In this document: positions 1,896 through 47,611 of the stretch, piece by piece
Layout: the number at the start of each line of letters is the position of its first letter
How positions within the stretch are numbered: position 1 is the first letter of the stretch
NCBI RefSeq assembly: GCF_014202415.1
Contig: NZ_JACHGR010000008.1
Location: 62,001-126,000 of the forward strand
Direction: 5' to 3'
Source: Tolumonas osonensis
Lineage (GTDB): Bacteria > Pseudomonadota > Gammaproteobacteria > Enterobacterales > Aeromonadaceae
DNA: 64,000 bases
The notes under the pieces: generated by a model
Seen by the model: the letters and a program-made list of their open reading frames with translations, nothing else
Told to the model about the DNA's origin: nothing
Database searches by the model: none
Translations under genes and position numbers: made by a program

Positions 1896-2440
1896 TGACA
1901 TTCCTGCACCACATAGCGGAACTCTTTGCAGCAAACCCACTGGCACAGTCAGTGGGTTTAATTGCATTTGCGGTCGGCATTTCGGCTTTTATTCAGAAAA
2001 ACGATCAGCGGTTGCGTACCCTGCTGACGCTGTATTGTGTGGTGATCGGTTGCCACTTCTTTCTGCTCAGCGCGCCGACGGCTGCCTATGCCGCCTGGCT
2101 GAGCGGATTACGCAGTTTTGTCTCCACCCGCACCCGCCATGTGGCGGTGATGGCATTCTTTCTGCTGATCGTCTGGGTGCTGGGCATACCGAATATCACG
2201 CAGCCGATCCAGTGGCTGACCATCATCGGTACCACGCTGGGCACCTGGGCGCTCTACCGCGAACAGGGTATCCGCATGCGCCTGCTGATGCTGATGGGAA
2301 CGGTCTGCTGGGTTACGCATAACTTCGTGATTGGCTCGATTGGCGGCGCCATGATCGAAGGCAGCTTCCTGTTTGTGAACAGCCATACGATCTTCCGGTT
2401 GTGGCAGCAGCGCGCGGCACCGCTCTCCGGGGAAAGTTAA
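1895..2440 (+). CDS. ygjV: YgjV-type inner membrane protein
   Basis: A 181-residue protein with about five or six hydrophobic segments and few charged residues outside the loops, so an integral inner membrane protein. It resembles the YgjV family (bacterial inner membrane protein family PF10688), whose function is unknown. In E. coli, ygjV also lies beside uxaA, which supports the assignment. The ATG at 1895 shares its A with the uxaA stop codon, so translation is probably coupled; a TTG at 1892 is in frame but less likely. The location suggests a link to uronate metabolism, but nothing in the sequence shows a transport role. Confidence 0.72.
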   Translation: MTFLHHIAELFAANPLAQSVGLIAFAVGISAFIQKNDQRLRTLLTLYCVVIGCHFFLLSAPTAAYAAWLSGLRSFVSTRTRHVAVMAFFLLIVWVLGIPNITQPIQWLTIIGTTLGTWALYREQGIRMRLLMLMGTVCWVTHNFVIGSIGGAMIEGSFLFVNSHTIFRLWQQRAAPLSGES

Positions 2441-2584
2441 ACCGCGCCGTATGATGCAACGCGGCTGACAGCGCCACGGCTGTCGTTTTAGATCCGCTTC
2501 GCAGAACATAAACCGGTTATCACGGATAATGTTTTGCTAATCGGCAAACATTCAGCCGCAGAACGAGAGCACGGAAATCACATC

Positions 2585-3043
2585 ATGAATACGCCAAAGA
2601 TATTAGTCAGCGCCTGCCTGTTAGGTTGTCCGGCACGCTATGATGGTCAGAGTAAACCGGTGAATCATCCGCTACTGCAACGCTGGCATGCCAATGGCTG
2701 GCTGGTACCGTACTGTCCGGAGCAGGCCGGCGGACTGCCGACACCGCGTCCGGCCGCCGAAATCCAGCAGGATGGGCGCGTCATGACCGGCGAAGGCAAG
2801 GATGTCACCAGCGCATTTCTGAAAGGGGCCGAACAGGCACTGGCCCTGTGCCAGCAGCAGAAAATCAAATATGCCCTGCTGAAAGAGAGCAGCCCGTCCT
2901 GCGGCAGCCACGACATTTATGACGGCCAGTTCCGCGGCCGGAAGATTCAGGGAGAAGGCATCACCGCCCATCTGCTGAAAGCACACGGTATCCGCATCTT
3001 CTCCGAGCAGCAGATTGACGAGCTGTTTACGACCCTGAGTTAA
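2585..3043 (+). CDS. DUF523 family protein
   Basis: A 152-residue soluble protein beginning with the family signature VSACLLGCPARYDG, followed by YCPEQAGGLPTPRPAAEI and ALLKESSPSCGS. These cysteine-containing motifs define DUF523, a small family of unknown biochemical function found alone or joined to DUF1722. The start at 2585 is preferred because the signature begins seven residues later; an earlier in-frame start at 2534 would add an unconserved tail. It has its own 140-bp upstream gap and no operon partner. The conserved cysteines suggest metal binding, which is inference. Confidence 0.8.
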   Translation: MNTPKILVSACLLGCPARYDGQSKPVNHPLLQRWHANGWLVPYCPEQAGGLPTPRPAAEIQQDGRVMTGEGKDVTSAFLKGAEQALALCQQQKIKYALLKESSPSCGSHDIYDGQFRGRKIQGEGITAHLLKAHGIRIFSEQQIDELFTTLS

Positions 3044-3091
3044 ACCGGGTCACGCCCTGCCCCGCACTCCACTGTGCCGGGGCCGGATGTT

Positions 3092-4189
3092 CTATTCTGC
3101 GCCGATCGCGTCGATAATATCGATCAGCTCCGTGTCGTACTGACGCCACCACGGCAACCAGTATGGCGGCGCCGATAACTGTACCGGTGCGCCGATCTGC
3201 GGCATCAGCAGCGGCACCTGCTGCGCGTGGGCCAGCGCGGTGATCCGCTCGAACGGCTCGAACCAGTCATGCAACGCCAGATCAAACGTACCGTTATGGA
3301 TCGGCAGCATATACTGCCCTTTCAAATCCAGATGAGCCCGCAGCGATTGCTCCGGCAGCATGTGCACATCCGGCCAGCTATGATCATAGGCGCCGGTTTC
3401 AATACAGGTGACATCAAACGGGCCGTAAGCCTCGCCAATCTGCTTAAAGCCATCGAAATAGCCGGTATCGCCGCTGAAAAACAGGCTGAATTCCGGTGAT
3501 CGGATCACCCAGGAACACCACAGCGAGCGGTCGGTATCCAGCAAACCGCGTCCGGAGAAGTGGCGCGCCGGGGTGGCGACCAGTTGCGTGTTGCCGATCT
3601 GTACCGACTGCCACCAGTCCAATTCGGTAATGGCGCTCGCCGCAACGCCCCATTGCCGCAATTTTTTGCCGACGCCAAGCGGCACATAAAACTGCTCACA
3701 GCGGGAACGCAGCGTGCGGATACTCATCTTGTCCAGATGGTCATAGTGGTTATGCGAAATGATGATGCCTTTCAGCGCCGGCAGTTGTTCCGGCGAGAGC
3801 GGCGGGGCGTGAAAGCGCTTCGGACCAGCCCACTGGAGTGGTGACGCCCGTTTGGAAAACACCGGATCGGTCAGCCAGAACTCGCTGCCGAGTTTTAGCA
3901 ATAATGTGGAGTGTCCCAGCCGGTATAGCGTATCCGCCGGCGCAGCCAGCAATTGCAATGTGGTGAGCGAATGGACCGGCAACGGTCTGACCGGCGCCGG
4001 CACCGCCGGACGGGCAAACAGGTAACGCCCCAGCAGACGGAGCAATCCGGTCGCGGTCATGGGTTGCGGCAGATGATGATTACGAAAGCGTTTTTGATGA
4101 AAAATACTGCCGGACGACGTCACACGCTGACGGAGCCCATTATTGATTTCTTCCGGCAATTCCGCTGCCACATCTGATGAATGCGCCAT
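3092..4189 (-). CDS. MBL-fold metal-dependent hydrolase, NAPE-PLD-like
   Basis: A 365-residue metallo-beta-lactamase-fold protein with the zinc motif HNHYDHLD at about residues 146-153, a second metal region GDTGYFDGF, and the family-typical opening RLGHSTLLL and WLTDPVFSKRASP. These features match the N-acyl-phosphatidylethanolamine phospholipase D-like / UlaG-like hydrolases; the bacterial substrate is not deducible. The start was set at 4189 because AGGAGG lies just upstream; an ATG 14 codons earlier has no such site. It is convergent with the DUF523 gene and transcribed away from the tRNA. Residues 10-60 are poorly conserved. Confidence 0.8.
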   Translation of the reverse strand: MAHSSDVAAELPEEINNGLRQRVTSSGSIFHQKRFRNHHLPQPMTATGLLRLLGRYLFARPAVPAPVRPLPVHSLTTLQLLAAPADTLYRLGHSTLLLKLGSEFWLTDPVFSKRASPLQWAGPKRFHAPPLSPEQLPALKGIIISHNHYDHLDKMSIRTLRSRCEQFYVPLGVGKKLRQWGVAASAITELDWWQSVQIGNTQLVATPARHFSGRGLLDTDRSLWCSWVIRSPEFSLFFSGDTGYFDGFKQIGEAYGPFDVTCIETGAYDHSWPDVHMLPEQSLRAHLDLKGQYMLPIHNGTFDLALHDWFEPFERITALAHAQQVPLLMPQIGAPVQLSAPPYWLPWWRQYDTELIDIIDAIGAE

Positions 4190-4334
4190 GACATCCTCCT
4201 GATCCCGATCCGCTGCTGAGGCTGTATTCACAGACTAAAGGCGGTTTATGACAGTATGACGACGTTTTTGTGCCAGCCGGATGAAGAAAAATGTGCGCTT
4301 CCGCTCAAGGATTAAGCAATCAACTCATTGATGC

Positions 4335-4376: not shown

Positions 4377-4467
4377 GGAGAGATGGCAGAGTGGTTAAAT
4401 GCACCGGTCTTGAAAACCGGCAAGGGTTTGTAGCCCTTCTAGGGTTCGAATCCCTATCTCTCCGCCA
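4377..4467 (+). tRNA. serT: tRNA-Ser (anticodon UGA)
   Basis: A 91-nt class II tRNA. The acceptor arm GGAGAGA (4377-4383) pairs with TCTCTCC (4457-4463), followed by discriminator G and an encoded CCA. The anticodon stem CCGGT/ACCGG holds the loop CTTGAAA, so the anticodon is TGA at 4411-4413. The T-arm shows GGTTCGAATCC and there is a long variable arm (AAGGGTTTGTAGCCCTT), as serine tRNAs require. Serine tRNA genes are common integration sites. The accessory-looking genes just downstream fit that, although no integrase or partial tRNA repeat is visible. Confidence 0.97.
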
Positions 4468-4479
4468 GATACTACGGAA

Positions 4480-4507
4480 AAGCCCGCTGAATAAGCGGGC
4501 TTTTTTG
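4480..4507 (+). terminator. Rho-independent terminator after tRNA-Ser
   Basis: AAGCCCGCT at 4480-4488 and AGCGGGCTT at 4494-4502 form a 9-bp stem with a 5-nt loop, followed by a T-rich run. It lies 12 nt beyond the tRNA CCA end. Confidence 0.9.
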
Positions 4508-4548
4508 TTTTTGCGTTTTCCCGGCCTCTGGTTCTGTCGGGGGAAATA

Positions 4549-4815
4549 CTAATCACCAATCAGCACATTCCCTGAACCGCTGATAATGACGCCGCCATGT
4601 GACGTTGCAGCACCAAGCAAAGCAGCCGGTTTCCCGTTGATAAATACAGTCGAACTTCCTGTTACTATTGTGGCGCCACAACTTGTTGCATCACCCACTC
4701 TTGCTGCGGGTAACCCATTAATGAATACATCACCAGAACCGGATGATATGGTATTTACGGAGTGCCCTTTCTGCGGGCAAGCATGAGAATCACTGACTCT
4801 GGCGGCTAATGGCAT
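4549..4815 (-). CDS. PAAR-domain protein (orphan spike tip)
   Basis: An 88-residue protein made entirely of a PAAR domain: it opens MPLAARVSDSHACPQKGH and repeats short GS-rich beta segments (VFINGLPAARVGD, VFINGKPAALLG). PAAR proteins form the zinc-stabilised conical tip on VgrG trimers of type VI secretion systems and carry or recruit effectors. The His and Cys residues expected for zinc are present (H11, C13, C47, H72). No VgrG, Hcp or effector lies beside it, so it is an orphan gene. GAGGA precedes the ATG. Its position just past the tRNA suggests an accessory insertion. Confidence 0.88.
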   Translation of the reverse strand: MPLAARVSDSHACPQKGHSVNTISSGSGDVFINGLPAARVGDATSCGATIVTGSSTVFINGKPAALLGAATSHGGVIISGSGNVLIGD

Positions 4816-5213
4816 CGGTTGTCCTCAATGAATGAATTGACTTATTTTAGCCTCCATTGAGGCCGCTCATTAACCGTAGATATTACAGGTTAAACAGCAC
4901 CGGCTAACGTACTGGAAATTACAGTAATAAACCGTGCGATAATGGGTGTGGAACCAATGAGGCTAGTATTAAGCTTGGGGGGAAGTTACAACGAAGCCAA
5001 TATGCAACTGCCTCACTGCAGATCGGGCCATTTCAGAACAAGATCTGATGATGAGCAGAATAGGAGCTTTATTCTGCTCACAAAATGATGCAAATAGCAG
5101 ATGAATTCGACTCAAGAGTGATTTTTATGAGCTTCCGCTCGCTTTTTTCAGCGTCATGTAACAACTCTGCTATCGAGATAGAAGAAAAGCATATTGAGGC
5201 ACAGCCTGACTAG
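4816..5213. other. Gene-free 398-bp gap between the PAAR and NERD genes
   Basis: No convincing coding frame. It is visibly richer in A and T than the surrounding core genes. It holds one perfect 11-bp hairpin, TGAGCAGAATA (5052-5062) with TATTCTGCTCA (5070-5080), not followed by a T-run on either strand. A short GAGC-TTCC-GCTC hairpin with T-run lies near 5129-5148. Likely non-coding, possibly a decayed insertion scar. Confidence 0.5.
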
Positions 5214-6113
5214 CTAGTCTCTCTTAATATCTCTAACCCTCTGCTCAACCTGATAGGCAATAGCGTTGATTTGCCCTAGCTCCAGAGCCCCGGCAAAAAA
5301 TTTAGGGAACACTTTCGGTAAGGCCGAGGCATTCAGAATATACGGATCAATAGCACGCTGTTTCAGTTCCACGAACCATCCCGGCAATACCAGAATGCCT
5401 GCAACAGGAATATCCATACCTGTTGCGCTTTGAAGCCACTTTCTGACTGACAGAACGTTTCGCCTAACCTGCTCGATTGGTTCTTTTTCCGTGTGAGTCG
5501 GAAAGATAAGCGAGTCATTCTCAACAACCACTTTGAATTGTTTGGAACCCTCAATGATATGCTTTGAGCGGCCTTTGGTCTCAACAACAAAAACACCGTT
5601 AGGACCAACAACCAAGTGGTCGATATTGTAGTTTTCGAACGGAATATCATGATACAGCCGGTAGGGATGATTGACGGGGCGAATCAAATTCTCTAATTCC
5701 TGGCCAACGGCCATTTCACAGGAATAGCCCAGCCTGTTTTGCTCTAATGATTTCACTAACTTCAATATATTCCGGATTTTAAATACAAAAGTAATGAAGC
5801 CAATGGTTCCTGTGATTATCCATGCAGTGAGAGATAATTTGATGTTAAAAAAGTACGCCTGAATTAATAGGAGTAAAGGCAACATCAATCCAATCATTAA
5901 GATTTCTGTAATTTGGCCAAATAACTCAAGTTTCAAGTCATGGATACTTTCCTGAAGCGTGTACCCATAAGGTCGTAACAAATTGGCAGTGAGAGGGCTA
6001 ACCCGGTTTTTACGCTGTTGTTTTTTAATAAAAGAGATAATTCCGATAGCTACAGCCACAGGAAAAAACGAAAGTGTTAACGCTATCAACATCGCATACA
6101 GGCTATCAAACAT
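5214..6113 (-). CDS. Membrane-anchored NERD-domain protein
   Basis: A 299-residue protein with three hydrophobic segments (about 8-28, 70-90 and 95-115) followed by a NERD (nuclease-related) domain. The core of that domain is IDHLVVGPNGVFVVETKGR, with D165, E178 and K180 in the arrangement of the PD-(D/E)xK-like active site. NERD proteins are predicted to act on DNA; this one would place the domain on the cytoplasmic face of the inner membrane. It is 49 nt downstream of the methyltransferase-HNH gene on the same strand and probably co-transcribed. The gene is AT-richer than the core genes, which suggests transfer. Confidence 0.8.
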   Translation of the reverse strand: MFDSLYAMLIALTLSFFPVAVAIGIISFIKKQQRKNRVSPLTANLLRPYGYTLQESIHDLKLELFGQITEILMIGLMLPLLLLIQAYFFNIKLSLTAWIITGTIGFITFVFKIRNILKLVKSLEQNRLGYSCEMAVGQELENLIRPVNHPYRLYHDIPFENYNIDHLVVGPNGVFVVETKGRSKHIIEGSKQFKVVVENDSLIFPTHTEKEPIEQVRRNVLSVRKWLQSATGMDIPVAGILVLPGWFVELKQRAIDPYILNASALPKVFPKFFAGALELGQINAIAYQVEQRVRDIKRD

Positions 6114-6162
6114 AAAATATTTTCCCTAAGTCCCTTTACCCCGGTAATGGCGATGAAGCAAA

Positions 6163-7944
6163 TCACCCCCAATCTTCCAGCTGCTGAAAATCCTTGATCC
6201 GATCCCGCTGCAGTGACATGGCTTCAAACACATCCTCGTAGTTCTCATGATACGGCTGAATGCTGGGCAGTGCGAAGGCGGCCTGGGTGAAAAACTCGGC
6301 TTTATGGTCATCCCATGCCTGTTGCCACCAGTGCAGGATCAGTTCCTTCGAGTTGGAGAGCCTTATCCGACTCGGCAGTCGGTCGGATTTCTGCGCATTG
6401 ATGATGGTTCTGGCCGGCAGCAGGTTCCATAAATCATTGTTTGGCCAGCGGGCGAACGGAAAAGCGTGGTCGATCGCGTAATCCTTTGTCCGCAGCGCTT
6501 TCCCGCTCCAGCAACAGCTCACCGGTTCTTGCGCCAGCAGGCTATTGACCCGGTTTCTGACTCTTGTCGTCGTTCTTTCCGGATCGTCCCACGTTAAGGC
6601 GTTCAGGTAATCGAGTTTTGAGTATTGCCGTTCCCTGTTTTTCCCATACCCCGCCATCAGCGCTGCCCATTCGTTGATCAGCGCCGGTTCGATCCAGACA
6701 CTGTACCGGGTCAGCGCATCCCAGATATGTTTGGGCACATAGAAGTTGCCGAATGATTTCAGAAAATCGAAATCCAGGATCAATCCGTCCGTGGCGGGTT
6801 GGCGCGGAGCAATATCCACGTTGAAAACCGCATCTGATGACGCTCCCGGCAAAGTGGTGTATCTCGCTGGCATTTCCCGGATGCTACGGGCGGTATCCAC
6901 ATGAAAAACCGGCTCATACGTTCCCGGCAAGGTGGTGTATTTTGCCGGCATCTCCTTGATGGTGCGGGCGATATCTTTCAGTGTCTGACTGACGGCGGAG
7001 GCGATCGCTGCTTGCGGGTAATGGGCGCCGATGTAGAAATCATTATTGGCGAACGAGGTCAGTTGTGACCAGCCCGCGGATTTAATGAAGCCAAGCCCTT
7101 TGGTGTTACTGCTGCTCTGCTGCATGTCGTACTGATCAACCAGCGGCTTATACAGTTTCAGCCAGTACAGGGCGACCAGACCCAGCGGCAGGCAAACCTG
7201 CTGCTCGGTTTGTTCCATGACCGCACCGGGATGTCCGTCGGCTATTCGCAGGAGCGTTCTTAATAACGCCAGCTTGTAGGTGGAGGATTTGCTGTCATTC
7301 ACCACGATATTGCGGATGAGCGGGAAGGCGCCGGTGCCATCGTCCGGCAGTGTCAGCAGAACGGTTTCCCAACTGACGTCACTCCGGCCAAGCTGGTCAG
7401 CCTGCCGGTTTTGGGTCAGCAACTGGCAGGTCAGGCCAAACTGACTGGCATACTGCGCCAGTTCGGACGCGGAGACCGGATGCATTGTTCGTTCATCCCG
7501 GCATTCACCATGCCGCAATGAAATGACCATTTTTCCGTTGGGTTTGAGCAGGGAGCTTAATTTGCGAAAGGTGCGTTCCCGGCTGGATGGCGCGATATGC
7601 ATCCAGACAGCACTGAGCAGAATCAGGTCAAATTTCACCTGCAATGCGAACACCTGATTCAATTCCGGCAGCGCGTCGCACAGCCAGTGAATGTTGTGGT
7701 TTTCCGGGTTGGCCTTCGCGGCTTCCAGTAATGTCTCTGCGGGCTCCACCGCGACAACACTCAATCCCTTTGCCGACAAGTACCGGGCATCACGGCCGGA
7801 ACCGGCGCCGACATCCAGCGCCATGCCCTGCGCAGGGATATGGCTCAGCCAGTCTTTATGCACCGACTCGAAATGCACCTGGTCATATTGGGCAATCAGC
7901 GAATGGGCATTGTCCGTGTAAAACTGAATGTTTTTATCGTTCAC
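6163..7944 (-). CDS. SAM-dependent methyltransferase fused to an HNH endonuclease domain
   Basis: A 593-residue two-enzyme fusion. Residues about 1-200 are a class I methyltransferase: DVGAGSG at 44-50 (motif I), an acidic turn VEP at 66-68, and FDLILLSAVWMHI at 105-117 (motif IV region). Residues about 218-320 form a helical middle region starting STYKLALLRTLLRIAD, a pattern I associate with HNH-type restriction proteins. A short duplicated linker follows (324-377). Residues about 475-530 are an HNH domain: CCWSG, IDHAFPFARW with H493, N503/N507 and INAQKSDRLP. The methyltransferase resembles small-molecule (TehB/UbiG-like) rather than DNA methyltransferases and lacks an obvious DPPY or PC motif. 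Target and role are unknown. It is followed by the NERD gene. Confidence 0.78.
   Translation of the reverse strand: MNDKNIQFYTDNAHSLIAQYDQVHFESVHKDWLSHIPAQGMALDVGAGSGRDARYLSAKGLSVVAVEPAETLLEAAKANPENHNIHWLCDALPELNQVFALQVKFDLILLSAVWMHIAPSSRERTFRKLSSLLKPNGKMVISLRHGECRDERTMHPVSASELAQYASQFGLTCQLLTQNRQADQLGRSDVSWETVLLTLPDDGTGAFPLIRNIVVNDSKSSTYKLALLRTLLRIADGHPGAVMEQTEQQVCLPLGLVALYWLKLYKPLVDQYDMQQSSSNTKGLGFIKSAGWSQLTSFANNDFYIGAHYPQAAIASAVSQTLKDIARTIKEMPAKYTTLPGTYEPVFHVDTARSIREMPARYTTLPGASSDAVFNVDIAPRQPATDGLILDFDFLKSFGNFYVPKHIWDALTRYSVWIEPALINEWAALMAGYGKNRERQYSKLDYLNALTWDDPERTTTRVRNRVNSLLAQEPVSCCWSGKALRTKDYAIDHAFPFARWPNNDLWNLLPARTIINAQKSDRLPSRIRLSNSKELILHWWQQAWDDHKAEFFTQAAFALPSIQPYHENYEDVFEAMSLQRDRIKDFQQLEDWG
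6814..6975 (-). repeat. In-frame tandem duplication in the methyltransferase-HNH linker
   Basis: Two adjacent units of 26 and 28 codons (6898-6975 and 6814-6897) encode residues 324-349 and 350-377. Both contain the near-identical core EMPA(K/R)YTTLPG followed by VF(H/N)VD. The unit lies between the helical middle region and the HNH half. DNA identity is high but not complete, so the copy is not brand-new. Confidence 0.85.
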
Positions 7945-8081: not shown

Positions 8082-9227
8082 ATGGACAATCCTACTTTCG
8101 ACTATAAGGCTCGCTGGAGCCGTGCGGCAGCCTTGATGGAACGGGACGGCGTCGATGCGCTGTTTCTGATGAAACCCGCCAACCTCGCCTATTTTACCGG
8201 TGATGGCCGGCCGTGTGCGCTGGCGCTGCTCACGCGGACACAGCGTTGCGTCGTGGCCGTGCCGGCGTGTGATGTCGCGAGTGTTCAGCGTGCCTCGGCG
8301 GCAACCGAGATTCGAGCCTTTCAAAGCGAGGCCGAGATGTTTCACGGTTTTCGCGATGTGCTGCAGGAGCTCGGTCTCACGCAGGCAACCATCGCAATTG
8401 AGAAGAACTTCTTCGACGCGGCACTCTATGACGTCTTTGTCGCCCATATTCTGCCGCAGGCCAAGGTCGTCCCGGCAACGCCTATTATCTCCCAGCTACG
8501 CATGATTAAGGATCCGGAGGAAATCGCGTGTCTGAAGGCGGCCGCACGGGTCGCGGATGCCGGTATGAGTGCGGCGGCGCGTGCGCTGCGACCCGGTGTC
8601 AGCGAGGCCGAGATTGCCGGTGAAGCGGAACTGGCGATGCGCAAGGCCGGGGCTGAGGGCTGGGCGTCAGTGACCTATGTAGCGTCAGGCTGGCGCTCCG
8701 CCATGGCCCATGGACCGGCCACGGCGAAGATCATCGCCGCCGGGGAAGTGGTTCAGGTGCATCTTGCGCCCATGGTGCAAGGTTACGCGGCGGATCTGTG
8801 CCGAACCTTTCTCATCGAACCGGTGCCGGTGGATGCGGCGAGCGCGCTGCATGCCTATATTGACGCGCAGGAACGGGGCATTGCCGCCGCCATATCCGGT
8901 GCGGTATTGCTGGGCATTGACGGCGCGATGGCCACGTCACTGGAACAGGCCGGATATGCCGGCAAATTCCTGCGGCCGGTGTTCCACGGGGTCGGCATCG
9001 AACACGAAGAAGCGCCCATTCCTGGCGGTCATGCCGTGATCCATGGCGAGCAGAAGGTCGAACATGTGATGGTGGGCATGGTCCTCGGTATTGGTAACTG
9101 CGGCATCTATCGCGAGACCTTCGGGGTACGGGCGGAAGACACGATCTGGGTCAGCGAAAGCGGGCCAGTGGCGCTCACCCGCTTTCCCAAATACCTGACT
9201 GTGCCTGGTAGCGTTGAAGCGAGGTGA
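8082..9227 (+). CDS. Creatinase-like M24 family protein with altered metal site
   Basis: A 381-residue protein with the two-domain creatinase/prolidase layout: an N-terminal creatinase-type domain (about 10-145) and a C-terminal pita-bread M24 domain (about 150-375). Of the five metal ligands of M24 peptidases, D238 (GYAADLCRT), H302 (FHGVG) and E352 (RAEDTIWV) are present. The first Asp position is H227 (VQVHLAP) and the EPG glutamate position is N339 (GIGNCGIY). Creatinases also lack the metal set, so an amidinohydrolase-like or other non-peptidase role is likelier than Xaa-Pro cleavage. A cupin gene follows after 4 nt. Confidence 0.7.
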   Translation: MDNPTFDYKARWSRAAALMERDGVDALFLMKPANLAYFTGDGRPCALALLTRTQRCVVAVPACDVASVQRASAATEIRAFQSEAEMFHGFRDVLQELGLTQATIAIEKNFFDAALYDVFVAHILPQAKVVPATPIISQLRMIKDPEEIACLKAAARVADAGMSAAARALRPGVSEAEIAGEAELAMRKAGAEGWASVTYVASGWRSAMAHGPATAKIIAAGEVVQVHLAPMVQGYAADLCRTFLIEPVPVDAASALHAYIDAQERGIAAAISGAVLLGIDGAMATSLEQAGYAGKFLRPVFHGVGIEHEEAPIPGGHAVIHGEQKVEHVMVGMVLGIGNCGIYRETFGVRAEDTIWVSESGPVALTRFPKYLTVPGSVEAR

Positions 9228-38773: not shown

Positions 38774-39670
38774 ATGCAACTCAGAAAAATGGCCTATGTA
38801 TTTATGGCATTAACAACCAATCTAACCGCAGCAAACTCATTTGCCGCAGAATCAGTTAAACCGATGACTGATAAAAATTATTCAGTTGTGCAACTACAAG
38901 AAATTCGCAATGCGACAGTGAAAATTACTTATGCCGATACGACCTTTTTAATTGATCCCATGCTTTCCAAGAAAGGAACGTATCCCGGATTTGAAAACAC
39001 TTATCGTAGTGAATTAAGAAATCCGTTAGTTGATCTGCCAATGTCAGAAGACGATGTTCTTAAAGGTGTTGATGCGGTGATTGTTACACATACGCACTTA
39101 GATCATTGGGACGATGCGGCGCAGAAACTAATTCCTAAAAATATGCCCTTATTTGCTCAGAATCAGTCTGATGCCGATATCATTCGTAAGCAGGGATTTA
39201 AGGATGTTCGCATCCTTGGTACTCATACTGAATTTAGTGGTGTTACCCTCAGTAAGATTGGTGGTCAGCATGGCACAAATAAAATGTACGCTGAGCCGAT
39301 GGTTGCTAAAAGGCTAGGTGAAGCTATGGGTGTTGTCTTTAAGGCTCCTCACCATAAAACTTTATATCTGGCTGGTGATACCATTTGGCGTCCTGAAGTA
39401 GATCAAGCGCTGAATCAATTTAAGCCTGAAATTATAGTTCTAAATGCTGGATACGCACGACTAACAGGATTTGATGACTCTATCATCATGGGAAAAGCTG
39501 ATGTCCTGAAAGCATCAAAACTGATGCCGAACTCAAAAATTGTTGCTGTTCATATGGATGCAATCAACCACATGAGCCTAACACGCAAAGAACTGAAGCA
39601 ATTCGTTCATGCTAATAACATCGACAATCATGTCGATATCCCTAAAGATGGTGAAAGCCTGAAGTTTTAA
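38774..39670 (+). CDS. Exported MBL-fold hydrolase in the repeat-flanked insert
   Basis: A 298-residue metallo-beta-lactamase-fold protein with a signal peptide (about 1-25, ...AANSFAAES). The zinc motif THTHLDHWDD spans residues 105-114, with further ligands in GGQHGTN, LAGDTIW and VHMDAINH. It belongs to the broad UlaG-like group; the substrate is unknown. The gene is visibly richer in A and T than its surroundings and uses different codons, a sign of transfer. It is followed by a terminator and then the GlxA-type regulator, a pairing that suggests the regulator controls it. Confidence 0.8.
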   Translation: MQLRKMAYVFMALTTNLTAANSFAAESVKPMTDKNYSVVQLQEIRNATVKITYADTTFLIDPMLSKKGTYPGFENTYRSELRNPLVDLPMSEDDVLKGVDAVIVTHTHLDHWDDAAQKLIPKNMPLFAQNQSDADIIRKQGFKDVRILGTHTEFSGVTLSKIGGQHGTNKMYAEPMVAKRLGEAMGVVFKAPHHKTLYLAGDTIWRPEVDQALNQFKPEIIVLNAGYARLTGFDDSIIMGKADVLKASKLMPNSKIVAVHMDAINHMSLTRKELKQFVHANNIDNHVDIPKDGESLKF

Positions 39671-39673
39671 CCT

Positions 39674-39699
39674 AAAAGCCACCTTCGCGGTGGCTTTTG
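39674..39699 (+). terminator. Terminator after the MBL gene
   Basis: AAAAGCCACC (39674-39683) and GGTGGCTTTT (39689-39698) form a 10-bp stem around a 5-nt loop, ending in T residues. It begins 4 nt past the stop codon. Confidence 0.88.
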
Positions 39700-39766
39700 A
39701 CTGTGATAAGTTTTCTATAATTGTTCAAACCGTAGCTATAGTGCCAACAGTGATTGGATAAATTGA

Positions 39767-40729
39767 ATGTCAGCAATTCGCGTCGTCATTTTAGCCTTTG
39801 AAGGGGTAAGCCTCTTTCAGCTTTCCATTCCTGCAATGGCTTTTGGTGTTGTCTATAAACCAGCAGATTTCCCAATCTATGATGTTCAATATTGCTCACA
39901 ATATCCGGGGCTGCTCTGTAGTGATCAAGGAATTGTCATTGAAGTTAACCATGGGCTTAATGCCATGGATGATGCTGATGTGATTATTATTCCTGCTTGG
40001 CCTGATCCCAATATTACAGCCCCAAAAGAGATTATCGATGCATTAAAAAAAGCGCATACAAAAGGGATATTAATTGTTGGGTTATGCCTTGGCGCATTTG
40101 TACTCGGAGACGCCGGATTACTTGATGGCCGAGAAGCAACAACGCATTGGATGGCACGTGATATTTTTGCGCAACGTTTTCCTTTGTCTCATTTTCGCCC
40201 AGATGTACTTTATGTCGACGATGGGAACATCATTACATCTGCCGGAACTGTCGCGGCAATAGATTGTTGTTTACATTTGGTCAGGCAACGACACGGAGCT
40301 GCAGTGTCGAACCGCATAGCCAGATTATTGGTCACACCTCCACACCGGAGTGGTGGGCAAGTGCAGTACATCGAACATCCGATCCCACAGATACCAACCG
40401 GAGATCGTCTCGTCAACGTCTTAGAATGGGCTCGGCAACATTTATCTGAGAATTTATCACTAGACTCGTTAGCAGAAGTGGCAAATATGAGTCGCAGAAC
40501 ATTTACTAGACGCTTTAAGGAAACGACCGGAATAACCGTGACACAGTGGCTGAATGCTGAGCGAGTTATGAGAGCGCAGACATTGCTAGAAACAACGGGA
40601 ATGTCGATAGAAAAAATCGCATATGAGGTGGGGTTTGGGACACCTCTGTCATTTCGTCAGCAATTTAATCATCAGCTAGGAATGCCGCCGTCTGAATATC
40701 GGCGTACCTTTTCTCAACAAGTTTTGTAA
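39767..40729 (+). CDS. GlxA-family AraC-type transcriptional regulator
   Basis: A 320-residue regulator with an N-terminal DJ-1/PfpI-like amidase fold (residues 1-190; the elbow VGLCLGAF places Cys107 at the usual nucleophile position). The C-terminal AraC domain (about 215-315) has two helix-turn-helix motifs (LDSLAEVANMSRRTFTRRFK and IEKIAYEVGFGTPLSFRQQF). GlxA proteins sense small metabolites and often control neighbouring genes. It shares the AT-rich composition of the MBL gene and lies inside the same pair of direct repeats. Confidence 0.87.
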   Translation: MSAIRVVILAFEGVSLFQLSIPAMAFGVVYKPADFPIYDVQYCSQYPGLLCSDQGIVIEVNHGLNAMDDADVIIIPAWPDPNITAPKEIIDALKKAHTKGILIVGLCLGAFVLGDAGLLDGREATTHWMARDIFAQRFPLSHFRPDVLYVDDGNIITSAGTVAAIDCCLHLVRQRHGAAVSNRIARLLVTPPHRSGGQVQYIEHPIPQIPTGDRLVNVLEWARQHLSENLSLDSLAEVANMSRRTFTRRFKETTGITVTQWLNAERVMRAQTLLETTGMSIEKIAYEVGFGTPLSFRQQFNHQLGMPPSEYRRTFSQQVL

Positions 40730-40754
40730 ATCGATAAAACCTGTATGACAAAAA

Positions 40755-40777
40755 CACCGTGATGCGGCGCACGGTAC
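40755..40777. repeat. Short comM/yifB-like fragment beside the right repeat
   Basis: These 23 bases match 37689-37711 inside the comM gene with two mismatches, in the same orientation. They sit 13 bp before the right copy of the 42-bp repeat, which itself copies sequence found 35 bp upstream of the comM start. Confidence 0.6.
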
Positions 40778-40790
40778 CAGCTTGGAGGAA

Positions 40791-40832
40791 CCAACGGCTG
40801 CCATGAAAAACAGCCGTCAGAAGTGGCGGGAA
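40791..40832. repeat. Right copy of the 42-bp direct repeat
   Basis: 41 of 42 bases equal to 38544-38585. It follows the GlxA-type gene and precedes the permease terminator. The same ACGGCTG/CAGCCGT hairpin is present. Confidence 0.9.
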
Positions 40833-40839
40833 ACATGGC

Positions 40840-40865
40840 AAACCCCGGCTTTCATACCGGGGTTT
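40840..40865 (-). terminator. Hairpin downstream of the GntP-family permease gene
   Basis: AAACCCCGG (40840-40848) and CCGGGGTTT (40857-40865) form a perfect 9-bp stem with an 8-nt loop. The U-tract is short on either strand. Its position 44 nt after the permease stop supports a terminator for that strand. Confidence 0.65.
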
Positions 40866-40908
40866 AGTGTCAACGCTCAGCTACAGTCCGAGATCGCAGC
40901 AGATTCCA

Positions 40909-42258
40909 TCAGATAAAGACATTCAATGTCAGTATCGACAGTAAGCCCATGATCGACATGACGGTCGACATCAGGGACCAAGAGAGGAAAGTTTCTTTGG
41001 TGGTCAGGCCGAAAAATTCTTTGATCATCCAGAAACTGGCATCGTTGACGTGAGAGAAGATACAAGAGCCAGCACCGGTTGCTAGTGTCACTAACGCTAA
41101 ATTGGTTCCCGTATGAGTTGCCAGCATTGGAATGACCAAACCGGCGGTTGAGATTGCAGCAACCGTGGCGGAGCCCAGACAGATACGCAGTAATGCTGCA
41201 ACACTCCAAGCCATCACGAGTGGATTGATATCAACACCCGCAAACATCTGGGCAATATAATCACCCACGCCAGAGTTGATCAGTACTTGCTTGAATGCAC
41301 CACCACCACCGATGATGAGCAGCAAACCTGCGATACCGGCAATTGCACTACCACAAGAATCCATCAGCTGTTTTACGTCTTTTTCGAGTTTGATACCCAT
41401 GGTGTATAACGCAAACAGGAAGGAGACCAGCATGGCAATTGTTGCATTCCCCAGGAATTTGATGACAACCAGCAGAAAGCTGTTCTCCACAGCCTGATCC
41501 AGATGCATCATTTGAATCATAGTGGCAATCGCCATCAAACCAACAGGCAGCATTGCCGTCAGGAAACTGATACCAAAACCTGGCATTTCTTCATCAGTGA
41601 ACGATTTCTGAGTGCCTAATGATGAAATACTGCCTGCTTTGGTGAATGCATCCGGAATCATCTTTTTACAAACTTTATTCAGGATTGGACCACTGATCAG
41701 GAAGGTTGGAATACCAGTCAGCAGACCATAGATCAGCACTTTACCGATATCCGCACCATACTCACCGGCAATCACTGTTGGGCCAGGATGTGGAGGTAAG
41801 AACCCGTGCGCTACAATCAAGCCGGATGTCATCGGAACGCACATATACATCGGAGAGATTTTTGCTTCTTTAGAAATTGCAAAGATGATCGGAATTAACA
41901 AAATCAAACCGACTTCGAAGAACAGCGCGATCCCAACGATGAAAGAAGAAAACACAACCGCCCACTCCAGTCGTTTTTCTCCGAAAAAGTCTAATAAGGT
42001 TAATGCAATGCGTTGTGCTGCACCCGCGTCGGCTAATAAGCGACCAAGCATTACCCCAAAACCAAAGATAAGTGCGATATGACCAAGTGTTCCGCCTAAC
42101 CCTGACTCAATCGTTTTCACTATTTTTTCGGATTCCATTCCGGTTGCAAGTGCGACCCCAATAGAAACCAGGATTAAGCTGATAAACGTATTTAGTTTTA
42201 CTTTTATGGTTAGAAATAAAAGTAATGCGATGCCTATGGCAACGATGACTAATGGCAT
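40909..42258 (-). CDS. GntP-family sugar-acid permease
   Basis: A 449-residue carrier with about 12 membrane segments and the GntP/GntT pattern: [44 protein letters not shown] and [24 protein letters not shown]. The family imports gluconate and related aldonates by proton symport. It is the last gene of a minus-strand group with the YjhG dehydratase and YjhH aldolase, so D-xylonate or a similar pentonate is the likely substrate. Specificity within the family cannot be fixed from sequence alone. Confidence 0.85.
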
Positions 42259-42301
42259 ATGTACCTCTCAGATATATTTATAAATGTGTTGTGTGTTTTT
42301 T

Positions 42302-42324
42302 CAGGGTCTCGCGAAAAGACCCTG
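42302..42324. other. Hairpin between the permease and dehydratase genes
   Basis: CAGGGTCT (42302-42309) and AGACCCTG (42317-42324) form a perfect 8-bp stem. On the transcribed minus strand it is followed by A, not U residues, so it is not a normal terminator; it may be a processing or mRNA-stability element. Confidence 0.55.
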
Positions 42325-42336
42325 GGATTTTTAAAA

Positions 42337-44304
42337 TCATTTATTACCTGGAATATGAGATAGAAAATGCCTGCTGATCGCTTCTACGTCATAAATGCAT
42401 CCACGCCATGTTCCTCCACTGGCTGCTTGTAATAGCGCCCATAAACGGGTGTCTTCGGGTAAATCTGGATCAGGCGCTAACTCAGGGTGAGATGTGCGAC
42501 TCTGTAATTCTTTCGCGCCATCTTCAGGGGTTAAAAGATGGTTTTCGTCAGAGCCAAGGAAGTTGACCGAGCCCTCTAATTTCACGCAATCGACGACTAT
42601 TTCGACGATGTCACCATCGCGTAATTTGCCGATTGGGCCGTCGGCCAATGCCTCCGGACCGACGTGACCAATACAGGCGCCGGTTGATACACCAGAAAAA
42701 CGGGCATCGGTGATCAGGGAGACATGTTTGCCGTAAGACAAATGCTTCAGAGCACTGGTCACCTGATAAGTTTCTTCCATCCCGGTACCGGAAGGACCGG
42801 TGCCAATGATGACCAGAATATCGCCGGCTTTGACTTTCTCATGTTTGATGTCAAAAACAGCTGCTTTTTCAGAGGTGAAGACTTTAATCTTACCCTGATG
42901 ACGATAGACACCATCTGCACCAATCACGCTTGGATCAATCGCGGTAGATTTAATCACCGAACCTTCAGGGGCAATATTTCCGACCGGGAACGTAATGGTG
43001 GACGTCAGCCCTTTATCTCGCGCGAGAGACTGGCTCATGATGACGGAGTCCGGATCGATATGGTCACGTTCACGCAAAATCGACCTGAACTTCTGACGTC
43101 GTTCCGATTTCTCCCACCAGTCGAGATTTTCTTTGACCGTCTGGCCGGTCACGGTCAATGCATCTTCATGCAACAGACCGAGTTTACGCAGATGCAACAT
43201 CACTTCCGGAACGCCACCTGCCATAAAGGCACGAACCGTTGGGTGGTTAATCGGGCCGTTCGGGATCACGCTGACCAAGCGTGGTACTTCTTTATTGATT
43301 CGGGTCCAGTCATCCACGGTTGGGATCCGGCATCCGGCCTGATGCGCAATGGCTGGAATATGCAACAGCAGATTCGTTGAGCCACCAAAGGCGGCATGCA
43401 CAATCATCGCATTCTCAATCGCTTTATTGGTGAGAATATCTTTGGTGGTGATGCCCTTAGATTGCAATAGCAGCGCCGCTTTCGCAGAAGCTTTGGCTAT
43501 ATCTACCCATACGGCTTCACCAGAAGGTGCCAATGCGGAGTGAGGTAATGCCAGGCCCAAACCTTCGGCAACAACCTGCGAGGTACCAGCTGTGCCCAGA
43601 AACTGGCAGCCGCCACCGGATGAAGCACAAGCAGAACAGCCTAAACGGCAGGCATCATTCAAAGAGAGTTCGCCATTGGCAAAGCGAGTGCCGATGGTTT
43701 GGACTTTCCCGTTATCTTCACCATCGATAGCCGGGAGTGTTGAACCGCCAGGGATCAGGACGGTGGATTTATTATGCTGTGAGGCCAACGCCATCATGGT
43801 TGCTGGCAGCCCTTTATCGCAACTGGCAACACCAATCACTGCTTTGCAGGTTGGCAGAGAACGGATCAGTCGACGCATGACCATGGCCGCATCATTGCGG
43901 TATGGCAGTGAATCAAACATCCCGGTAGTGCCTTGCGTGCGGCCATCACATGGATCAGACACATAAACGGCATAAGGCACGCCTTGCTGACCAGTAATTT
44001 CATCCGCTGCCGCCTTCAATTGAATGTCCAGCTCGTAGTGGCCCTGATGCAGCGCTAACGCTGTTGGTTTCCCGTCCGGATTGCGCATTCCACCCAATGT
44101 GCTGAGCAACAGAACTTCCGTACCAAGCAGCTTCTCTGGCTGCCATCCCATTCCGGCATTCATCGTCATGCCGAAAATATCGCCACTCGGCAGATTCATC
44201 AGCATGTCTGGGGTCAGTGGTAAAGCGCCGTCCGGACCAGCGGCCTGAGTTTTTACCTGATAAATAGATTCATCAGAGGGATTATAAAGATTATCCAAAT
44301 TCAT
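42337..44304 (-). CDS. yjhG: YjhG-type D-xylonate dehydratase
   Basis: A 655-residue member of the IlvD/Edd family, the same length as E. coli YjhG and strongly similar to it (MTMNAGMGWQPEKLL, GHYELDIQLKAAADEI, SDPCDGRTQGTTGMFDS). Fe-S cluster cysteines appear in SDPCDGR, ASCDKGLP and CSACASSGGGCQFLG. It dehydrates D-xylonate to 2-keto-3-deoxyxylonate. It lies 15 nt before the aldolase gene's end and upstream of the permease, forming a pathway unit with both. The first ~15 residues are the least conserved. Confidence 0.93.
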   Translation of the reverse strand: MNLDNLYNPSDESIYQVKTQAAGPDGALPLTPDMLMNLPSGDIFGMTMNAGMGWQPEKLLGTEVLLLSTLGGMRNPDGKPTALALHQGHYELDIQLKAAADEITGQQGVPYAVYVSDPCDGRTQGTTGMFDSLPYRNDAAMVMRRLIRSLPTCKAVIGVASCDKGLPATMMALASQHNKSTVLIPGGSTLPAIDGEDNGKVQTIGTRFANGELSLNDACRLGCSACASSGGGCQFLGTAGTSQVVAEGLGLALPHSALAPSGEAVWVDIAKASAKAALLLQSKGITTKDILTNKAIENAMIVHAAFGGSTNLLLHIPAIAHQAGCRIPTVDDWTRINKEVPRLVSVIPNGPINHPTVRAFMAGGVPEVMLHLRKLGLLHEDALTVTGQTVKENLDWWEKSERRQKFRSILRERDHIDPDSVIMSQSLARDKGLTSTITFPVGNIAPEGSVIKSTAIDPSVIGADGVYRHQGKIKVFTSEKAAVFDIKHEKVKAGDILVIIGTGPSGTGMEETYQVTSALKHLSYGKHVSLITDARFSGVSTGACIGHVGPEALADGPIGKLRDGDIVEIVVDCVKLEGSVNFLGSDENHLLTPEDGAKELQSRTSHPELAPDPDLPEDTRLWALLQAASGGTWRGCIYDVEAISRHFLSHIPGNK

Positions 44305-44319
44305 CGATGACTCTCCGCT

Positions 44320-45228
44320 TTATTTCAGAATGCCGTGAGATAATAAAAATTGTTTCAATTTTGACTTCATTTCATCCGTCGGTTGCTGGGTTGGAGGAAG
44401 ACAATAGGTATTAATTGGCAGACCTTTGAGTTTCATGGCCTCTTTGATTAAGGCAATAAATGGCGTATCCAAACCATAAACGCTCGGCATTTGAATCAGT
44501 TTTTTATGCATTTCAGCCGCTGTTTTTAAATCACCCTGTTGAAATGCCTGATAAATACCTACTGATAATTCAGGTGCGAAATTAATGCTTGCAGTAATAG
44601 AACCATCACCACCTAGCAGTAAAGTACTCAATAAATGATCGTCATAACCGCAGAGCACTGAAAAATCCGGCCTCACTTCTTTTACGATATTAATCATATT
44701 TCTGATATGAGTGACACTGTCGATTGTGTCTTTAATACCAACAATGTTGTTGTGTTTGAGTGCCAGATTTTTTACGAACTCTGGGGTTAGATCCTGACCA
44801 GTTAGTAACGGGAAGTTATATAGCAAGACTGGAAGATCAGTCGCAGAGGCAATGCTCTGGAAATAATGTAGCAGATTTTTTTCTGTAACCTTCCAATAGA
44901 AAGGATTAATCACAACAACAGCATCTGCACCTGATTTTTCGGCATGCTTTGTTAACTCAACAGCTTCTCTTGTATTTGTAGAGCCAACACCAATTAATAC
45001 CGGAACACGATGGGCAGTCACCTCAATGGCCGCTTCGGCTAATTTCATTCGCTCAACATGATTCATTTGCGAGAATTCGCCACCACTTCCCAAATAGAAC
45101 AACCCGTTAACACCTGAGGTTATCAGATAGTCTGCAATTGCTTTAGTCGCTGTATAATCTATATTCCCTGTATTATCAAAAGCGGATGAAACAGGGGGAA
45201 TCACACCAGAAAATTTTTTAATACTCAT
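44320..45228 (-). CDS. yjhH: YjhH/YagE-type 2-keto-3-deoxy-pentonate aldolase
   Basis: A 302-residue class I aldolase of the dihydrodipicolinate synthase family, close to E. coli YjhH. Signatures: KKFSGVIPPVSSAFD, FYLGSGGEFSQM, PVLLYNFPLLTGQDLTPE with the catalytic Tyr, and NIVGIKDTIDS with the Schiff-base Lys. It cleaves 2-keto-3-deoxyxylonate to pyruvate and glycolaldehyde. ATG at 45228 is preferred; a TTG overlapping the regulator's stop would add six residues. It lies between the IclR-type gene and yjhG on one strand. Confidence 0.9.
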   Translation of the reverse strand: MSIKKFSGVIPPVSSAFDNTGNIDYTATKAIADYLITSGVNGLFYLGSGGEFSQMNHVERMKLAEAAIEVTAHRVPVLIGVGSTNTREAVELTKHAEKSGADAVVVINPFYWKVTEKNLLHYFQSIASATDLPVLLYNFPLLTGQDLTPEFVKNLALKHNNIVGIKDTIDSVTHIRNMINIVKEVRPDFSVLCGYDDHLLSTLLLGGDGSITASINFAPELSVGIYQAFQQGDLKTAAEMHKKLIQMPSVYGLDTPFIALIKEAMKLKGLPINTYCLPPTQQPTDEMKSKLKQFLLSHGILK

Positions 45229-45242
45229 ACTAATCTGCCTTT

Positions 45243-46013
45243 TCAAATAAACGGCTTACGATAGCCAAGACCATAAGATATTGTTTTTGCACTATTCAGC
45301 AAGCAATCAAGATATTTCGCCCGATGTTTTACAGAGAAGGTTTCTGTGGTTCCGGAAATGGAAATCGCATAACTAACTCTGCCGTAGATATCAAACACAG
45401 GCGCACCTAAACAAATCACACCATCTTTAGATTCTTCATTATCAATTGCCCATCCTTGCATCTTTGTTTTTAAAAGCTCGGATTTAAAGGTTGGAATGTC
45501 TGTAATTGTTTTATCCGTGTATCTATTCATGTATATATTATTGACATAATGATCTATTTCATCATCCCTCATCCATGCCAATAATGCTTTTCCTAGAGCT
45601 GTTGCATGTAATGTTAATTTCTTTCCTATCCAACTTTCCTGGGTTGGCACAGATGATGGGCATTCAATTTTGTCCAGATATATAGCGTGGTGATTTTCAA
45701 TAACGCCCAGATGACAAATCAGTCCGGCCTGAATTGAAAGCTCTTGCATTGGCCTTCTTGTTATTTCAAATAAATTCTTTTTATGAAATGATTGACAACC
45801 CAATTCGTATATCTTTAATCCAAGGACATATTTATTTCGGTCATTTTTAACAAGCAAACCACAATCAATCATTATCTCCAGGAGAACTAAAGCACTGCTT
45901 TTTGGTAATTCTATTTTTGCAACAATTTCACTGAATGTTGCAGAACCAACACGTCCAATATAAGTCAGTATTTTGTCTGCCCGAATCAGCGAGGTGCCAC
46001 CTTTAGTTCCCAT
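45243..46013 (-). CDS. IclR-family regulator of the xylonate-type locus
   Basis: A 256-residue IclR regulator: an N-terminal winged helix (about 10-70; SATFSEIVAKIELPKSSALVLLE) and an effector domain with HLGVIENHHAIYLDKIE, LHATALGKALLAW and DGVICLGAPVFDIYGRVSYA. E. coli pairs similar regulators (YagI/XynR, YjhI) with its xylonate genes. Strongly AT-rich, unlike the core genes. CAGGAG precedes the ATG. It is divergent from the alcohol dehydrogenase and upstream of yjhH, and probably controls both directions. Confidence 0.86.
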   Translation of the reverse strand: MGTKGGTSLIRADKILTYIGRVGSATFSEIVAKIELPKSSALVLLEIMIDCGLLVKNDRNKYVLGLKIYELGCQSFHKKNLFEITRRPMQELSIQAGLICHLGVIENHHAIYLDKIECPSSVPTQESWIGKKLTLHATALGKALLAWMRDDEIDHYVNNIYMNRYTDKTITDIPTFKSELLKTKMQGWAIDNEESKDGVICLGAPVFDIYGRVSYAISISGTTETFSVKHRAKYLDCLLNSAKTISYGLGYRKPFI

Positions 46014-46311
46014 TCATTCAACTCCTGTTAATTAACCAGAGTAGATGCTTCTATTTAAATCTACTCAGTAAAAATAAAAAATACTTTGTACAGCATGCTG
46101 AACCAAAATGTTGAGATACCATCCACAAAGTGATTCTTTTGAATTTTCATTTGTTAGTATGAATAAAAGAAAACAGCCATGAATAGCCAGTTAATGTAAT
46201 CGCTTTTTTCGCTGATTTTTGTTTTTATGTATTTTTGTGATCTGCTTCAAATAAATGCGAGATTTGTATTTCTTGTTCAAAAGTTAATTTTTTATTTTTA
46301 AGGAGAAACAT
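46014..46311. other. AT-rich divergent control region (IclR gene / alcohol dehydrogenase)
   Basis: About 300 bp with no coding frame, strongly AT-rich, between two divergent starts. It must hold both promoters and probably the IclR operator. I could not pick a single convincing palindrome; AAAAATAAAAAATA and TTTTTATTTTTAAGG tracts near each start are only suggestive. Confidence 0.5.
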
Positions 46312-47430: not shown

Positions 47431-47473
47431 GCAACTAACCGGCTTCCTTTTAGCTTCCAGATGTAACGATAAG

Positions 47474-47499
47474 ACCCGGCGAGAAAAGCCGGGTTTTTT
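47474..47499 (+). terminator. Terminator of the alcohol dehydrogenase gene
   Basis: ACCCGGC (47474-47480) and GCCGGGT (47488-47494) with a 7-nt loop, followed by TTTTTT. It lies 43 nt past the stop codon. Confidence 0.9.
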
Positions 47500-47611
47500 A
47501 AGGGGAACCGGAATACAGTTACGCTCCCGGTATCGCATCACATTTTATCCTCTTGATTTCCAGCGCAGCTGCACAGAAGATGGACGGGTTAAATCAGTAA
47601 CGAGGTCAGTT

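Follow-up and report, generated by a model that had tools for sequence, protein, structure and literature searches.

Nucleases with HNH, NERD and HKD-SF2 domains have been described around DNA phosphorothioation genes, with stand-alone NERD proteins at the edges of the loci, and stand-alone nucleases such as NERD have been proposed to serve as suicide effectors (PMC10853773). Those loci are the nearest published setting found for the gene considered here, which fuses a class I S-adenosylmethionine (SAM)-dependent methyltransferase (MT) to an HNH nuclease. The gene, MT-HNH, lies in a stretch of 64,000 nucleotides (nt) from Tolumonas osonensis (hereafter the window; positions 62,001–126,000 of contig 8, NZ_JACHGR010000008.1, in the 3.29-Mb assembly GCF_014202415.1). 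Literature searches aimed at the fusion found no description of it.

How does MT-HNH compare with known systems? The HNH domain of Cas9 (HNH_4) is the best match of its nuclease core in both sequence profile (E 0.0023 at best) and fold, but RuvC and guide-RNA parts are lacking and the fold match is weak (E 0.04 at best). In PADLOC, the MT domain aligns with mad2 of the MADS system at 62 bits, over profile positions 293–418 of 492 only; with this match being partial, and with the neighbouring NERD and PAAR proteins hitting no PADLOC model at all, we do not assign the locus to MADS. Finally, nucleases of the PLD-helicase kind (mREase_IV/HKD-SF2) recur as neighbours of the fusion, as proteins separate from it. 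Taken together, we tentatively read MT-HNH as a self-contained, horizontally moving single-gene defence nuclease under MT control, a statement that as a whole falls just short of even confidence. A role in defence of some kind appears probable, and anti-phage or anti-plasmid defence by this one gene would be the likeliest function. The original prediction, made from the sequence alone, had combined the fusion with the adjacent membrane NERD protein into a two-gene defence module next to a tRNA-Ser gene; its domain assignments were borne out, whereas the two-gene module was not.

Domain architecture and conservation

The MT-HNH gene (6163–7944, minus strand, GTG start) encodes 593 residues, and the open reading frame, Pfam and a 34-member alignment agree in placing both predicted halves in one protein: Methyltransf_25 covers residues 43–137 (E 1.5e-13), and HNH_4 covers residues 483–524 (E 1.5e-6; 28.5 bits against a cut-off of 22). 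All parts run on the minus strand. The MT domain (~residues 1–197; 7354–7944) carries LDVGAGSGRD as motif I, followed by AVEP and by LSAVWMHI in the region of motif IV. A conserved helical middle domain (~residues 198–345; 6910–7353), which is common to stand-alone HNH proteins, has no PDB match at E ≤0.001, and no solved relative appears among the fold and sequence-profile matches listed for the nuclease half. The HNH region (residues 386–593; 6163–6789) contains the core D492-H493/N507/N516-K519 (6388–6471), and with these H-N-N/K residues kept and the profile score above cut-off we count the protein as a member of HNH_4. The poorly modelled linker harbours a tandem duplication (6840–6975; copies 6840–6897 and 6918–6975, spaced by 78 nt or 26 codons) that, among the 34 aligned proteins, is found in T. 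auensis and the window only.

The alignment comprises 27 of 46 loci from the genome collection plus seven other proteins, chosen so as to exclude fragments, near-duplicates and loci with an MT only, and the MT domain, the middle domain and the HNH region are all conserved across it. D492, H493, N507, N516 and K519 are identical in 34/34 members, in keeping with the intact H-N-N set that had been claimed. On the MT side, G46, G50, D90, W114 and R122 are likewise identical in all 34, and D44, E67 and H116 in 33. AlphaFold models the full-length protein with a mean predicted local distance difference test (pLDDT) score of 86.0 and the nuclease half alone with one of 85.5. When the window is compared with T. 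auensis, the ratio of non-synonymous to synonymous substitution rates (dN/dS) is 0.083 for the gene and 0.043 for its MT part, for this one species pair.

Distribution of the fusion family

MT-HNH forms a real, widespread and patchily distributed family. The 46 confirmed loci of the genome collection, some of which are fragments or MT-only, include Idiomarina, Alteromonas, Vibrio, Enterovibrio, Marinobacter, Massilia and Smithella, along with a Candidatus Obscuribacterales metagenome-assembled genome (MAG); by the taxonomy lines of annotated records, fusions occur in Gammaproteobacteria and Alphaproteobacteria, with the Massilia, Smithella and Obscuribacterales loci scattered beyond. Both halves share one open frame in seven of 61 relatives, the genome of the window included (G000, G002, G007 (T. 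auensis), G009, G014, G037 and G057), and four of 11 genomes of the genus have the fusion. At the level of the phylum, 17 of 397 genomes sampled gave a strong match, and at that of the class six of 370, both lower bounds with at most five candidates scored per genome. More precisely, 19 phylum genomes passed, with two weak partial matches (G487, G669) not counted among the 17 and one split copy (G646) counted; eight class genomes passed, with two weak matches (G354, G385) not counted among the six and one partial match (G270) counted.

Among plasmids, 62 records match, nine of them over at least 80% of the protein. A single one of 50,697 phage records matches, through the MT part only. In viral contigs, searches with two short patterns each, which relatives may escape, confirmed none of 28 pattern-matched stretches as MT-HNH and none of 330 as NERD of the window type. 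Current annotation calls the fusion only a class I SAM-dependent methyltransferase or a methyltransferase domain protein. Broken copies occur at three loci (L048, L065, L066). One of these, from Idiomarina loihiensis (L048, 10004–14112), is split by two genes that on inspection resemble an IS21-type pair.

Modularity of the two halves

Both halves also exist apart. Plasmids of Hymenobacter, Tolypothrix, Nostoc, Leptolyngbya and Deinococcus encode stand-alone HNH proteins of ~388 residues that match the fusion in the middle domain and the HNH core (23–26% identity to residues 195–533) but lack a methyltransferase; they are annotated as 'HNH endonuclease domain-containing protein' or hypothetical. 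At three of these HNH-only plasmid loci, from Hymenobacter, Tolypothrix and Deinococcus (L117, L118 and L119; ~7.6–9.1 kb), a small gene precedes the nuclease gene, and the one such gene tested gave a helix-turn-helix match slightly below the Pfam cut-off.

Conversely, the MT of Escherichia coli prophage phi458 (Orf3) is 40% identical to residues 7–198 and shares the VWMH motif, but has no HNH domain. There is a 4-nt overlap between its gene and the gene of Orf2, a predicted two-helix membrane protein for which neither a Pfam family over cut-off nor a PADLOC model was found. At ≥99% identity, 29 of 5,426 E. coli genomes carry the pair, and in the phi458 paper (PMC9701743) the terms looked for do not appear in the text. 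In phi458 itself (L121) the pair occupies 2336–3519, not far from the integrase. Relatives of this MT and membrane protein adjoin each other at another locus (L073) and form one chain in a Silicimonas MAG (L075). These are links of the Rosetta-stone type to a second kind of partner: with relatives that stand next to a membrane protein or share one chain with it, the MT is coupled to another sort of effector-like protein as well.

A variant is seen in G014, where the SAM motif of the fused MT is ruined, alone among the 34 aligned proteins, and an intact 195-residue MT gene overlaps the start of the fusion by 4 bases. At this locus (L098, 8149–11158), the intact MT, the SAM-ruined fusion and a NERD gene follow one another, each overlapping the next or almost touching it. 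In G052 (L103, 8510–13844), a NERD gene, an MT gene, a PLD-helicase gene and a second, opposed MT gene lie within 5.4 kb, and the HNH fusion is absent.

Could MT-HNH be a toxin with a built-in antidote and no part in phage defence, that is, an addiction or stress element of mobile DNA whose MT silences its HNH domain? Copies on plasmids are consistent with this idea, as is the coincidence of the one ruined SAM motif with an intact MT gene adjoining it. On the other hand, such a toxin would be compatible with defence, the copies in T. auensis and the window are constrained like a metabolic gene of the flank (UxaA-like, 408–1895; dN/dS 0.063), and the broken copies imply that loss is tolerated. 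We therefore regard an addiction element as improbable, if still the best of the alternatives.

Nature of the methyltransferase

Type IIG restriction enzymes likewise combine a methyltransferase and a nuclease in a single chain; under such a scheme, the MT would mark host DNA and the HNH domain would cut DNA left unmarked. The intact HNH residues fit this scheme as well. DNA methyltransferases, however, carry NPPY/DPPY or PC as catalytic motifs, and no such motif is present in the MT domain, where the motif IV position reads SAVWMHI in most family members. The PDB fold matches of the MT (the 50 listed of 1,789) are all SAM-methyltransferases or share their fold; small-molecule enzymes head the list (3h2b, toxoflavin MT, thiopurine MT, TehB), tRNA methyltransferases are among the others (METTL6, CmoM), and a DNA methyltransferase is absent from those 50. 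Furthermore, no type II or IIG methyltransferase model figures among the PADLOC hits, and no target-recognition domain was noticed, although no separate search for one was made. By motif and fold, the MT is of a non-DNA type, as originally suspected, and its substrate is quite likely something other than DNA. On these motifs and folds we judge restriction-modification unlikely, leaving it only a slight chance.

The NERD neighbour

The gene next to the fusion, 49 nt further on and in the same direction, encodes a membrane-anchored NERD protein of 299 residues (5214–6113, minus strand; NERD domain 5382–5729), just as had been proposed. Pfam places NERD at residues 129–244 (E 4.7e-19; 69.4 bits against a cut-off of 22.1), and a simple hydropathy scan predicts three membrane segments. 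E139, D165 and E178-T-K180 are identical in 9/9 aligned homologues, a pattern of the PD-(D/E)xK type, so that catalytic-type residues are kept in the nuclease domains of both neighbours.

Do the two nucleases act jointly, as a two-gene defence module? For the window and T. auensis one might think so: the genes are co-directional in both, 49 and ~79 nt apart, purifying selection acts on NERD (dN/dS 0.074) as on MT-HNH, and in T. auensis ~4.7 kb of other sequence separates PAAR from NERD, yet MT-HNH and NERD have stayed together. NERD genes of another subfamily lie 36 nt after the fusion in G014 and 464 nt before it in G037; a distant member (30%) of the window subfamily sits 796 nt from the fusion at L035, convergently, and a NERD-bearing gene 2.3 kb from it at L111. 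Yet, of 71 loci with the fusion or a fragment of it, just six have NERD in the flanking sequence available, three of them immediately downstream. These 71 are the 76 loci used (>120 bits to the query) minus five MT-only ones (L073, L074, L075, L103, L120), with 16 duplicates or short MT-only loci left out by name and L064 lost in gene calling, and they include fragments, short flanks (e.g. L030) and kin that share a neighbourhood (L039, L040, L041, L050), which are not independent events. Nor does NERD occur within 8 kb of the fusion in any of 20 further genomes, the nearest being ~8.9 kb away in G757 with the helicase in between (G057 is also in the 49-genome set below, and G720 and G730 are apparently the same genomes as L051 and L054).

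The window-type subfamily directly follows MT-HNH in the window and T. auensis only, which comes close to the pair being found nowhere else, save for the other subfamily at G014 and G037, and it exists without the fusion in four genomes of the same family (G024, G027, G030, G036). NERD domains as such are common, being present somewhere in 37 of 49 genomes examined. Composition sets the two genes sharply apart, with a G+C content of 0.419 in NERD against 0.552 in MT-HNH (0.457 against 0.673 at third positions): an AT-richer patch does exist, comprising NERD, the spacer (0.427) and PAAR (0.494), but MT-HNH, thought to belong to it, is close to the left flank (0.568). We thus reject a fixed MT-HNH–NERD system as a general rule, and joint action of the two has little probability. 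NERD is very likely not an obligatory partner; perhaps it lies beside the fusion in several lineages more often than expected by chance, and at most it is an accessory neighbour that helps in a few lineages.

PLD-helicases and the wider neighbourhood

A more recurrent neighbour is the PLD-helicase (PADLOC mREase_IV, 'type IV' restriction), which occurs within ~5 kb of 10 of the 71 loci and at ≤150 nt in five, in varying order and orientation relative to the fusion. At L053, its Pfam domains are ResIII, Helicase_C, PLDc_2 and DUF3427. Among 397 phylum genomes, apparently those sampled for the fusion as well, 10 have a PLD-helicase (a lower bound, with at most two candidates scored per genome), and five of these 10 carry a strong MT-HNH match, as opposed to 17 in all 397 genomes (Fisher's exact test, one-sided, p 1.7e-5, ignoring relatedness). 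Helicase and fusion lie within ~5 kb of each other in three of the five (G574, G647, G757). The genome of the window has no PLD-helicase at E 1e-100.

For the genes flanking the fusion, 110 near and 99 control genes were picked, of which 107 and 94 were scanned, leaving out three split or tandem MT copies belonging to the loci themselves and five control genes at locus ends. Helicases of the PLD class make up five of the 107 nearest-neighbour genes and at most two of the 94 controls, going by the 25 commonest families listed. On plasmids, neighbours include McrC and His-Xaa-Ser genes. The PLD-helicase association supports a defence setting, not a fixed operon.

With tRNA methyltransferases among its fold matches, the MT might alternatively belong to a housekeeping enzyme of DNA or RNA repair. 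Strong matches in just 17 of 397 genomes, differing neighbourhoods and plasmid copies speak against such a function, to which we accord a still smaller chance than to restriction-modification or the two-gene module.

The tRNA-Ser site and the age of the pair

The tRNA-Ser (TGA) gene (4377–4467, plus strand) is the conserved left border of a variable stretch, and MT-HNH, NERD and PAAR run towards this tRNA gene in this order on the minus strand. The predicted tRNA is thus confirmed, but the MT-HNH–NERD pair does not touch it, for the gene of an 88-residue PAAR-repeat protein intervenes (4549–4815, minus strand); this protein is of the spike-tip type of type VI secretion, and we take it for a neighbour outside the MT-HNH unit. 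To the left, a metallo-beta-lactamase-fold gene (3092–4231, minus strand) forms a conserved flank, with a close orthologue (≥77%) in eight of 11 genomes of the genus, the window included, and a position beside tRNA-Ser TGA in seven relatives. Two of these seven regions end just past the tRNA, and four besides T. auensis have long sequence. On the other side, divergent from MT-HNH, follows a 381-residue gene that looks Xaa-Pro-peptidase-like on inspection (8082–9227, plus strand) and that, of 11 genomes of the genus, only those of the window and T. auensis have. T. auensis shares everything from PAAR up to this gene with the window, whereas the four other relatives with long sequence lack it.

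The site is variable, because relatives hold differing genes there: type I restriction genes begin ~1.2 kb beyond the same tRNA-Ser in G003 (L106, 887–8361), two tyrosine integrases are found in G009, a LacI-type regulator and sugar genes in G005, and other genes in G002 (G005 and G002 in part by inspection). The expectation that this serine tRNA site collects accessory genes accordingly holds. In G002 and G009 the fusion sits elsewhere, with tRNA-Val genes in the flanks. Entry via an element with a recognizable tRNA attachment repeat was considered and dropped, as the window showed no further exact repeat of the end of the tRNA gene (its last ≥15 bases). In T. auensis (L093, 7694–9224), a gene with helix-turn-helix and M78-peptidase (IrrE-like) domains and a 160-residue gene, toxin-antitoxin-like, lie between PAAR and NERD.

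Synonymous divergence (dS) between the window and T. auensis is 0.535 for MT-HNH, 0.758 for NERD and 0.770 for the UxaA-like flank gene. Because the divergence of the pair is about that of the flank gene, MT-HNH and NERD are no recent arrivals at the site; the lower dS of MT-HNH could reflect some later exchange. A second patch of low G+C content (~0.35–0.53) lies at 38774–48064 of the window and holds, by inspection, sugar-acid catabolism-like genes, an IclR-type regulator and a transporter.

Delivery of the HNH protein as a type VI secretion toxin with the adjacent PAAR spike is the least probable alternative and a weak case: the PAAR gene is 1.35 kb downstream of MT-HNH, the genome has two PAAR loci and three VgrG-type (Phage_base_V) loci, and Hcp- or VgrG-like genes lie near the fusion at L053, L059 and L068 (by inspection), but the protein itself gave no PAAR or Rhs match or other marker domain, no partner gene (and hence no fixed chaperone or immunity neighbour) recurs in more than eight of 52 loci among the neighbour clusters listed, with Hcp/VgrG-like genes in those three only, PAAR and NERD are ~4.7 kb apart in T. 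auensis, and an MT domain this strongly conserved would be unexpected in a toxin.

Discussion

What might MT-HNH do? The C-terminal half is predicted to be a DNA nuclease, a Cas9-type HNH domain set on a conserved helical platform, with DNA as its presumed target. The N-terminal half would be a SAM-dependent MT of the small-molecule or RNA kind, acting as trigger or guard of the nuclease. It may bind SAM together with a ligand that is altered upon infection, be it a nucleotide, a precursor of a modified base, or, in the case of a SAM-destroying phage, SAM itself, and the state of this ligand would decide whether the HNH domain cuts DNA, in one direction of control or the other. That the MT controls the nuclease is a view we slightly favour. 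We base the defence reading on the domain make-up, catalytic-type residues kept throughout the alignment, purifying selection between the window and T. auensis, the patchy spread, the variable site and the reuse of both halves, and further on the co-occurrence with PLD-helicases and the intact MT gene beside the SAM-ruined fusion of G014.

Several observations weigh against this reading. The nuclease half finds nothing in the PDB at E ≤0.001 (Foldseek), and in a PADLOC scan covering the MT-HNH, NERD and PAAR proteins of the window, the fusion hit only mad2 with its MT part and, weakly with its HNH part, Cas9 (E 0.0035) and PtuB (E 0.035). The split-MT arrangement of G014 is a case of one genome. 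Nor do the tallies of the commonest families show defence genes in general to be enriched beside the fusion: cytosine methylases account for three of 107 nearest genes and two of 94 genes >5.5 kb away, and more PADLOC families are matched in the distant control (229) than among the nearest genes (94). Of the neighbourhood evidence, the recurrent PLD-helicase remains; the evidence for general enrichment is weak, and we discard a general 'defence island', PADLOC tallies differing clearly for the PLD-helicase models only.

A bolder extension, which we consider rather unlikely, is that VWMH-type MTs are swappable immune sensors whose output is an HNH DNase in fusions such as MT-HNH and a membrane protein with two helices in phi458-like prophages. 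Such a sensor would read or make an infection-linked metabolite, or feel that a phage is depleting SAM by destroying it. If true, this would constitute an immune signalling logic built on a methyltransferase, not on a cyclase.

Should the reading of MT-HNH as a single-gene defence nuclease be right, a protein now labelled merely a methyltransferase would turn out to be a nuclease defence with a metabolic trigger, encoded by one gene. As one gene it is easily tested in a laboratory strain, and its MT half offers a clean handle on the ways in which an enzyme acting on small molecules can govern a nuclease.

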